64,000 nt of DNA from an uncultured Porphyromonadaceae bacterium. GTDB lineage: Bacteria > Bacteroidota > Bacteroidia > Bacteroidales > Muribaculaceae. Positions 12,590 to 29,177 of the stretch are shown in pieces. The stretch is taken from assembly GCA_946414395.1 (NCBI GenBank), contig CAMKOE010000001.1:62001-126000 (forward strand), read 5' to 3'. The notes below the pieces were generated by a model. That model was not told the DNA's origin. It saw nothing but the letters and a program-made list of their open reading frames with translations, and did no database searches. Made by a program: the position numbers and the translations under genes. Each line of letters begins with the position of its first letter. The first letter of the stretch is position 1.

Positions 12590-12718
12590 CTGCTTTTTTA
12601 CAAACCAACCTGTATCTTTTCTTAAAACTTTCTTCCTTTTTTTGTTAAATAAGGGGAGCGGCGATGTGCCATTCCCCCACGCTGTTAAACATCACTAATT
12701 TAAAAATATACTACAGAA

Positions 12719-19039: not shown

Positions 19040-19047
19040 TAATTTTG
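19040..19047 (+). promoter_or_regulatory. -7 box of the DUF4252-like lipoprotein gene
   Basis: TAATTTTG, 31 bases before the ATG at 19078, divergent from the pgk promoter. Confidence 0.5.
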
Positions 19048-19077
19048 TGCAATTCTAATTATTTAAGTTTTTCAAAA

Positions 19078-19590
19078 ATGGACAAACGAGTAACCAAAAT
19101 GATGAGAGTGGTGACGATGTTGTTGCTGTCGATGATGGTCGTCTCGTGCGGCTTGTGGCGCCACACTGCCGACGATGTTATCAACGACATGCGTGATGCA
19201 CGTCATGCACAATATGTTAATGTGGGAAATGGCCTGTTTGGACTGGGACGATTGATATCGCCAACCCTGTACGAGGCCGGCCTCGGAATCAATTCGATAC
19301 AGGTGCTAGACCTGAGCAAGTGCAGCGGCAATGACCGTGACAAGTTCCGCAAGCGCATTATGGACTTGAGCCGTAATGGCGCTTATGAGGAGATTGTCAC
19401 CCGCCAGGAGGGCTACGACACCAGAACAGCGCTCGTGCGCCGTGATGGCCAGTACATCAGCGAGGTTGTCCTGGTCAATGCCAGCGACAGGAATGATGTG
19501 ATGGTCTTGATCCTCGGCCACATCAATGTCGAGAACCTCGAACGCATCTTGAATGACAAGTCTATCGCTTCGGCTAGTCATTTAAACTAA
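19078..19590 (+). CDS. DUF4252-like lipoprotein
   Basis: A 170-residue lipoprotein. The start at ATG 19078 gives a signal peptide (MDKRVTKMMRVVTMLLLSMMVVSC) with a VVSC lipobox. The mature part resembles the small DUF4252 family of Bacteroidetes: an N-terminal helix-rich part, then IQVLDLSKCSGNDRDKFRKRI and a closing VMVLILGHINVENLERIL. Function of the family is unknown. The stop codon lies inside one copy of the 8-bp direct repeat flanking a MITE-like insertion, so the element inserted exactly at the 3' end of this gene. Confidence 0.65.
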   Translation: MDKRVTKMMRVVTMLLLSMMVVSCGLWRHTADDVINDMRDARHAQYVNVGNGLFGLGRLISPTLYEAGLGINSIQVLDLSKCSGNDRDKFRKRIMDLSRNGAYEEIVTRQEGYDTRTALVRRDGQYISEVVLVNASDRNDVMVLILGHINVENLERILNDKSIASASHLN

Positions 19591-19731
19591 GGCAATGATA
19601 TAGATGTTGGCCTGAACCCTGCGGGGCTAATGCGAAATACACGGATTAGTTTTAAATATTTTTCGTCAAATACGTTTTCTTAGCGAAATTAGCATTAAAA
19701 ACTTTTCAGGGCCAACTGCTATATCGCTCCC
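19591..19731 (+). mobile_element. MITE-like element, copy A
   Basis: A 141-bp non-coding element. Its first and last 22 bases are inverted repeats of each other at 17 of 22 positions (inner part GATATAGATGTTGGCC versus GATATAGCAGTTGGCC after reversal), with GG...CC termini. It is flanked by perfect 8-bp direct repeats TAAACTAA (19583-19590 and 19732-19739), as expected of a target-site duplication. The interior is closely similar to copy B at 29015-29177 in reverse orientation, including 20 identical bases at 19614-19633 and 29133-29152. It separates the lipoprotein gene from galK. Confidence 0.8.
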
Positions 19732-19778
19732 TAAACTAATGTTGAAATAATAAACGAATATATATTAATTACATCACA

Positions 19779-20912
19779 ATGAAAGAGAAGATTAAAGAAC
19801 AGTTTAAGCAGCGTTTTGGCACCGATTGTGTGACCTATGCTTCGGCAGGCCGTATCAACCTGATTGGTGAGCACACCGACTATAACGGTGGCTTTGTGTT
19901 CCCCGGTGCAATCGACAAGTACATCATGGCTGCCATCAACATCAATGGCACCGACAAGGTGCGTGTCTATAGTATGGATATGGACGCATACTGTGAGTTT
20001 GGCCTTAACGAGGAGAATGCTCCTCAGCAGCAGTGGGCACGCTACATCTTCGGCGTGTGCCGCGAGACCATCAAGCGCGGTGGCATTGTGAAGGGTTTCG
20101 ACACCGTGTTTGCGGGCAATGTGCCTCTGGGTGCAGGCCTGTCGTCATCGGCCGCATTGGAGTCCTGCTTTGCCTTTGCCCTCAACGATATGTTCAACGA
20201 TAACAAGATTGACAAGTTTGAGTTGGCCAAGATCGGCCAGAGCACCGAGCATAATTATTGCGGCGTGAACTGCGGCATCATGGACCAGTTTGCCAGTGTA
20301 TTTGGCAAGAAGGACTGCCTGATGCGTCTGGATTGCCGTTCGCTGGAACACGAGTACTTCCCCTTCCATCCCGAGGGCTACAAACTCGTGCTGCTCAACA
20401 GCAAGGTGAAACACGAACTGGTGGACTCGCCCTACAACAAGCGTCGCGAGTCCTGCGAGCGCGTGGCTGCCACCCTGGGCGTTGAGACCCTGCGAGACGC
20501 TACCTATACCATGCTGGCCGACGTCCGTGACAAGATCAGCGACGAGGATTACCGCCGTGCCCGCTATGTCATCGGCGAGAAGCAGCGTGTGCTTGACGTG
20601 TGCGACGCTCTGGAGCGTGGTGACTACGAGACCGTGGGCCGTTGCATGTTTGAGACCCACGATGGCCTGTCACGCGACTACGAGGTGAGTTGCGAGGAAC
20701 TCGACTATCTCAATGATGTTGCCCGCGAGTGCGGCGTGACCGGTTCTCGCATCATGGGCGGCGGCTTTGGCGGCTGCACCATCAACCTGGTCAAGGAAGA
20801 CCGCTATGACAACTTCATTGCCACAGCCAAGGAGAAATTCAACGCTAAATATGGACACGAGCCCGAGGTGATCAACGTGATTATAAGCGACGGCGCTCAC
20901 AAGGAGGATTGA
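19779..20912 (+). CDS. galK: Galactokinase
   Basis: GHMP-family kinase forming galactose 1-phosphate. The 377-residue protein has the substrate motif GRINLIGEHTDYNGGFVFP near the N-terminus, the ATP loop PLGAGLSSSAALE and the third motif GSRIMGGGFGGCTINLV. No promoter box is obvious in the 47 bases after the MITE-like element, so transcription may start in or before that element. It is followed after one base by galM, whose ribosome-binding sequence AAGGAGG lies within the last galK codons. Confidence 0.96.
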   Translation: MKEKIKEQFKQRFGTDCVTYASAGRINLIGEHTDYNGGFVFPGAIDKYIMAAININGTDKVRVYSMDMDAYCEFGLNEENAPQQQWARYIFGVCRETIKRGGIVKGFDTVFAGNVPLGAGLSSSAALESCFAFALNDMFNDNKIDKFELAKIGQSTEHNYCGVNCGIMDQFASVFGKKDCLMRLDCRSLEHEYFPFHPEGYKLVLLNSKVKHELVDSPYNKRRESCERVAATLGVETLRDATYTMLADVRDKISDEDYRRARYVIGEKQRVLDVCDALERGDYETVGRCMFETHDGLSRDYEVSCEELDYLNDVARECGVTGSRIMGGGFGGCTINLVKEDRYDNFIATAKEKFNAKYGHEPEVINVIISDGAHKED

Positions 20913-29014: not shown

Positions 29015-29177
29015 GGAAACGATATAGCAGTTGATCCTGAAAAGTTTTTTAATGCCAATTTCGCTAAGAAAACGTATTTTTGCGAAAAATATTTAAACTA
29101 TTCGTGATAAATATAACTAATTCGTGAAATTAGCATTAGCCCCGCAGGGTTCGGGCCGACTTCTATATATTATCGCC
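29015..29177 (-). mobile_element. MITE-like element, copy B
   Basis: A 163-bp relative of copy A (19591-19731) in opposite orientation. It has the same GG...CC termini, a related terminal inverted repeat (GATATAGCAGTT at the left end), the 20-base block at 29133-29152 identical to copy A, and a long shared A+T-rich interior. It is about 22 bases longer than copy A through an extra CACGAAT-type internal duplication. Flanking 8-mers are TTAAATTA (29007-29014) and TGAAATTA (29178-29185), 7 of 8 identical. It encodes no protein. An internal plus-strand TATTTTTGC (29075-29083) resembles a -7 box. Confidence 0.8.

Follow-up and report, generated by a model that had tools for sequence, protein, structure and literature searches.

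A multi-copy MITE between a lipoprotein gene and galK in a Muribaculaceae bacterium, with very probable dependence on IS1595-family transposons

What separates a lipoprotein gene from galK in this uncultured Muribaculaceae bacterium, and how did it come to lie there? The locus is part of a 64-kb stretch of DNA that was analysed as a whole and is here called the window. An earlier note had described a MITE-like element of 141 bp with 22-bp terminal inverted repeats (TIRs; 17/22 identical), GG...CC ends and perfect 8-bp flanking repeats. Direct reading of the sequence together with a repeat finder confirmed all of these features, as the element occupies positions 19591-19731 and is flanked on both sides by the perfect 8-mer TAAACTAA.

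19045-19590 (likely start 19078), plus strand: upstream DUF4252 lipoprotein gene (listed ORF; PF14060, E 1.3e-11)
19583-19590, plus strand: left target-site duplication TAAACTAA, the last three bases of which are the lipoprotein stop (direct reading, repeat finder)
19591-19731, plus strand: MITE copy A, 141 bp, non-coding (genome search, repeat finder, shuffle scan)
19591-19612, plus strand: left terminal inverted repeat GGCAATGATATAGATGTTGGCC, identical at 21/22 positions to the TIR of L180, L185, L200 and L210 (IS1595 transposons)
19710-19731, minus strand: right terminal inverted repeat, inward reading GGGAGCGATATAGCAGTTGGCC, 17/22 to the left TIR
19732-19739, plus strand: right target-site duplication TAAACTAA (direct reading, repeat finder)
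19779-20912, plus strand: downstream galK, galactokinase (PF10509, PF00288, PF08544)

The count of 17/22 applies when the TIRs of copy A are read from the GG/CC ends; the repeat finder delimited the inverted arms as 19590-19612 and 19710-19732, with 78% identity over 23 positions. With 141 bp, copy A can hold at most 47 codons, and Rfam at gathering scores gave no match in the 64-kb window. The stop codon TAA of the lipoprotein gene (19588-19590, the ORF ending at 19590) lies inside the left repeat, as had been claimed, and because the duplicated 8-mer contains this stop codon, the reading frame is kept despite the insertion.

The corresponding locus of relatives provided a direct comparison. 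Searching the lipoprotein in 61 same-genus genomes gave matches in 34, from which 30 loci were taken; after 6 distant loci without galK had been dropped, 24 loci were left, the window and 23 others. galK follows the lipoprotein gene in 24/24 loci where both were found, separated from it by 45-152 bp in all genomes but that of the window, and none of the 23 other loci carries the MITE. The closest sampled relative by lipoprotein identity, genome G034 (lipoprotein 96%, galK 98% identical), has an empty site with a single TAAACTAA, reading ...CATTTAAACTAATGGAG..., and galK begins 45 bp past the lipoprotein stop. The exact empty-site comparison refers to this one close relative, the spacers of the other 22 being too diverged. 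The outcome that the earlier note had named as speaking against a mobile element, namely presence of the sequence at this locus in all relatives, thus did not occur. The predicted gap of about 40 bases to galK after removal of the element is also borne out, as deleting 149 bp leaves 39 bp. As to the suggested splitting of an operon, the adjacency of the two genes stands, since they adjoin in all 24 loci and lie 45 bp apart in the sister species, and the operon itself is putative. Judged from these sequences, the insertion of copy A most likely postdates the separation from the sister species G034; we infer insertion here, as opposed to precise loss in G034.

The same spacer harbors a different structure in other relatives. 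A conserved hairpin, GGAATTGCC...GGTAnATTCC, was picked out by eye in this spacer in 16/23 relatives (L150:1993-2124, L156:1996-2089 and 14 other same-genus loci). Both-side changes occur in 4/9 of its predicted pairs, one of these four covarying pairs (columns 11-37) being broken in 5/16 sequences. Among the best 150 candidates per genome, a covariance model of the hairpin found 10 places at E <= 1e-4 in 37 genomes, all of which adjoin lipoprotein matches and are among the model-building sequences; the next match had an E of 0.003. The hairpin is missing from the spacers of the window species and G034, and the model found nothing at E <= 1 among the best 150 candidates of each of these two genomes. 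It is apparently locus-specific and a candidate for a cis-acting RNA of galK or for the 3' end of the lipoprotein mRNA.

The genome to which the window belongs (78 contigs, 2.63 Mb, 81% complete) was searched with the 141-bp element, a check proposed in the earlier note. At E <= 10 there were at least 51 matches, and at least 40 of them, copy A included, had E <= 1.1e-27 and represent whole or partial copies. The other 11 are short and TIR-only, most of them belonging to one arm of a copy that is already among the matches. Since scoring covered 40 of 90 first-look candidates, the copy number given here is a minimum. With as many as 3 mismatches allowed, the TIR core was found at 61 + 60 places in this genome versus 8 + 7 for a reversed control pattern.

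From loci of this genome, we collected 42 two-ended copies of 122-208 bp, a set that leaves out one-ended or truncated copies and includes a few poor-ended ones, in which the TIR mismatches total as many as 11. The 8-mers flanking the exact ends were identical in 8/42 copies and differed by one mismatch in 10 more, which gives 18/42 with at most one mismatch. In a control of 1,722 mispaired left and right flanks, 0.29% were perfect and 1.45% had one mismatch, so that about 0.1 perfect pairs and about 0.7 pairs with at most one mismatch would be predicted among 42. Perfect flank matches of other lengths were found once at 5 bases and never at 6, 7 or 9-12. The 8 perfect duplications have an A+T content of 86%, compared to 47% in the window. 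In 14/42 copies, the two flanking 8-mers differed at 4 or more positions, which could reflect the age or rearrangement of a copy or a misplacement of its ends; when the ends were shifted by 1-2 bases, perfect repeats of 6-10 bases appeared in some of these poorly flanked copies. The nearest pair of copies is 95% identical, and the copy closest to that of the window 92%. Copies with 8-bp duplications thus do exist elsewhere, and together with the multi-copy family and the empty site in G034, the duplications at many sites support the earlier view of a non-autonomous mobile element.

The window itself contains a second, degenerate member of the family:

29015-29177, minus strand: copy B, about 163 bp (blastn 78.5% over 149 columns)

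Its flanks, TTAAATTA and TGAAATTA, agree at 7/8 positions. When copy B was compared to G034, the flanks were unmatched, and the element alone was matched, at best with 92%, at another locus. Elsewhere in the genome, contig C13 carries five copies within 32 kb (at 12686, 14247, 17690, 42795 and 44248). Further copies begin less than 200 bp from the ends of contigs C1, C18, C52 and C55, and the repeat therefore probably breaks the assembly.

MITE matches were present in 19/61 sampled genomes, all of the same genus (19/37) and some by short matches only, while 0/24 genomes from other families of the order matched the MITE at E <= 0.001. An exact TIR scan of named assemblies, from which records near the window genome may be left out, yielded 42 stretches, every one from a record titled Prevotellaceae, Muribaculaceae, Porphyromonadaceae or Bacteroidales; the exact TIR pattern was found in no viral contig. 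Among the small elements in the relatives' loci, 30 have an interior that is at least partly of type 1, and 17 have other interiors; the type-1 label is a loose one (blastn E <= 0.01, some matches spanning only 16-26 nt). Duplications with at most one mismatch flank 15/30 of the type-1 elements and 8/17 of the others; one 'long' pairing, at L069, is spurious. Other MITE types between the same TIRs were seen at L169:4864-5090, L173:1844-2004, L178:4666-4827 and other places, with interiors (e.g., ACCGCCC..GGGCGGGAAATTA) that look like short hairpins followed by a constant tail and, by eye, are REP-like. Also by eye, another repeat, one end of which resembles GGCTGTGTCATAATTC, was noticed within or beside elements at L040 (about 710-1103), L060, L093 and L097.

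A non-autonomous element depends on a partner, and an IS1595-type transposase had been guessed from the GG termini and the duplications. The transposase domain PF12762 was detected in 11/61 same-genus genomes, 10 of them above the cut-off, and MITE-type TIRs were found near several of these transposases of relatives. Complete IS1595-family transposons, 2.5-3.0 kb in size, were then read in assemblies from the exact TIR scan; they have the TIR GGCAATGATATAGCTGTTGGCCCA, which matches the left end of the MITE at 21/22 positions; the right MITE TIR is less similar to the transposon TIR than the left one. Five of these transposons were delimited:

L180:2944-5447: 2504 bp, perfect 8-bp duplication TCAAGAAA
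L185:5021-7593: 2573 bp, perfect 8-bp duplication ATTATTTT
L208:2525-5496: 2972 bp, perfect 8-bp duplication TTTTTTTA, nearly homopolymer
L210:1581-4036: 2456 bp, perfect 8-bp duplication TTAACAAG
L200:1855-4463: 2609 bp, no duplication, flanks ACAAGATA / TAAAAATA

The transposons L180 and L200 (genome G017), L185 (G036) and L208 (G023) come from the same genus as the window genome. The five transposases have 324-326 aa and are 94.7-96.9% identical to one another. A Pfam and NCBIfam domain scan, which covered those of L180 and L200, assigned PF12762 (E 9.6e-46), PF12760 (E 2.5e-8) and NF033547 (E 3.4e-57) to the L180 transposase and likewise to that of L200. More distant IS1595 transposases carry more distant ends: L113, with about 61% transposase identity, has the ends GGCAATGATATACTTGTTGGCT and the target-site duplication (TSD) TTAATAAA, and L137, with about 75%, has the ends GGTAATTATATAGGGTTTGACC and a TSD of 7/8. 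Transposases of at least 95% identity were found in 3/61 sampled genomes (G017, G023 and G036), and all three are among the 19 with MITE matches. In relatives, complete IS1595 transposons thus combine 8-bp duplications with a TIR almost identical to that of the MITE, which turns the former guess into a supported assignment.

The sought IS with matching ends was found in related genomes and not in the 81%-complete assembly of the window species, in which PF12762 had no match at E <= 0.001. A search of this assembly with the transposase returned only a 276-aa, IS1595-like ORF (L211:1501-2331, contig C10:8805), which we rejected as a partner because of its 24% identity; its 3.3-kb locus has no TIR with fewer than 5 mismatches. 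Since the assembly is 81% complete, this absence is weak counter-evidence, and an element can be a MITE while its helper is not resident in the genome. The helper is rarer than the MITE, and in the window species it would either have been lost or lie in the missing part of the assembly. We also inspected TIR orphans in this genome and in relatives for an autonomous copy and found MITEs, fragments and other interiors only. The MITE interior had no significant similarity to seven IS1595 transposons (best E 0.05), and the MITE therefore did not arise from one of them by simple internal deletion.

The element could instead be a palindromic repeat that is domesticated or functional, i.e., a terminator, an mRNA 3'-end stabiliser or a regulatory RNA, that spread through a host function and not mainly as a transposon. 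Copy A with its flanking repeats indeed forms a strong predicted hairpin (z -3.0), as does the 142-bp consensus from the alignment of the 42 copies (-48.9 kcal/mol). Across these copies, the interior is conserved (about 0.84) to about the same degree as the right TIR (0.84), with 0.91 for the left TIR, and no copy (0/42) is fully contained in an ORF of at least 100 aa, although, among mechanically called ORFs, one of 194 aa starts within the copy at L013 and another extends 13 bp into that at L092. However, the intergenic bias is also expected from the choice of A+T-rich targets and selection against gene disruption, and the exact 8-bp duplications and the empty site indicate transposition. 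In addition, the TIRs are common to an autonomous transposon and enclose differing interiors, and the copies occur in every orientation of neighboring genes (23 tandem, 12 convergent, 5 divergent, 2 at locus edges). Spread through a host function is therefore improbable; the element may have a function as an RNA hairpin, but the explanation does not need one.

The MITE might also be moved by a partner from another family. ISL3, IS6 and IS256 elements likewise generate 8-bp duplications, and GG ends are common among them. For ISL3, however, PF01610 occurs in only 2/61 same-genus genomes, and the one candidate with ends, L129, begins differently (GGCTCAGTCG...); we rejected ISL3 as the partner, as neither ISL3 locus has matching ends. 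Because the IS1595 transposons do have matching ends, bearing nearly the MITE's own TIR, a partner from any of these other families is largely refuted and has very little probability left. Finally, the chance coincidence of an inverted and a direct repeat, which the imperfect TIR (17/22) might suggest, is practically excluded, as copy A belongs to a multi-copy family and was the sole match in the 64-kb window of a structure scan (GG, TIR of at least 17/22, CC and a perfect flanking 8-mer, 60-250 bp) that gave 0 matches in 100 dinucleotide shuffles and, when relaxed to at least 12/22, 1 match in 100 shuffles.

Copy A is thus very probably an IS1595-dependent MITE. The IS1595 transposase, supplied by the 2.5-3.0-kb transposons with nearly the same ends, would recognise the TIR of about 22 bp that starts with GGCAATGATATAG and would cut at the GG/CC termini. 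The element would then have been inserted at an A+T-rich target with an 8-bp stagger, which would give rise to the 8-bp duplications, and a transposase that binds the TIRs could move any interior between them. At the galK site, such an insertion would have added 149 bp upstream of galK and left the lipoprotein frame intact. The movement of copy A by the IS1595 transposase and the cleavage chemistry are proposed steps.

The transposons themselves differ in their cargo. In comparison to L180, the other four share the transposase block of about 1.1 kb (89-94% DNA identity) and 58-70 bp at the opposite end (87-95% identity), but their cargo genes differ. In all five, one or more cargo proteins bear a KKTIRLTESDLHRVIKESV-like tag of about 25 aa. 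At the DNA level, the tag region of L185, L200 and L208 is a 71-110-bp block with 83-93% identity to L180; L210 has no such block when compared to L180, so that the block is found in four of five transposons. A 28-aa composite of the tag, a very short query, had no match at E <= 0.01 in phage and plasmid records, and no literature match was found for the motif LTESDLH. Cargo proteins were scanned with those of L208 left out, and the scans gave nothing convincing: three proteins against Pfam, with one sub-threshold ATHILA match (E 8e-4), two against NCBIfam, and nine, one of them from L113, against PHROGs and PADLOC, with best E values of 0.037 and 0.0047 (Csx28), respectively. It is conceivable, though rather doubtful, that one IS1595 transposase lineage serves a modular population of cargo-exchanging autonomous transposons and several MITE types that share TIRs. 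The constant parts of such modular transposons are the transposase block and the end of about 58 bp. If this were true, interiors would be swapped between fixed ends by recombination and not made by deletion, and the 71-110-bp tag block KKTIRLTESDLHRVIKESV would be the crossover point.

In the same order as the window bacterium, Porphyromonas gingivalis is host to a MITE named BrickBuilt. The nearest transposase in a plasmid collection, on a Bacteroides faecis plasmid, is 45% identical to that of the partner transposons. By its published description, on which the comparison is based, the P. gingivalis MITE contains a minisatellite (PMC4596501). An IS1595-family MITE is listed for the archaeon Haloquadratum walsbyi (printed as H walsbyi) in Table 4 of PMC3852290, with ISHwa6 as the partner, 165 bp, 7 copies, 25-bp IRs and 8-bp DRs. 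By this description, it resembles the present element in small size, inverted ends, 8-bp duplications and an IS1595-family partner, whereas here the host is bacterial, the element measures 141 bp, its copies, whole or partial, number at least 40, and the cognate transposase was not found in the same assembly. IS1595 groups other than IS1016 are described as having 8-bp TSDs and zinc-finger and DDE_Tnp_IS1595 domains, as do the partner transposons here, and a single transposase gene (PMC8101967); in contrast, the MITE encodes nothing, and the transposons carry cargo genes in their 2.5-3.0 kb. ISApl4, of the IS1016 group of IS1595, is reported to favour A+T-rich 8-bp direct repeats, its mapped insertions being mostly intergenic, and, unlike copy A, it is not a MITE but an autonomous IS of 712 bp with 14-bp IRs (PMC12561309). 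None of the titles listed describes the present family, which, given the published IS1595 MITE, the 8-bp TSDs and the A+T-rich repeats, adds to a kind of element that is already known.

For the window species, the finding means that most of the spacer between the lipoprotein gene and galK would be an insertion and not an ancestral leader. The family accounts for a repeat that recurs in the assembly and at which some contigs probably terminate. For the Bacteroidales, it provides a clean and checkable IS1595-type MITE family with dozens of copies, duplications and an empty site, for which candidate helper transposons are available in related genomes.
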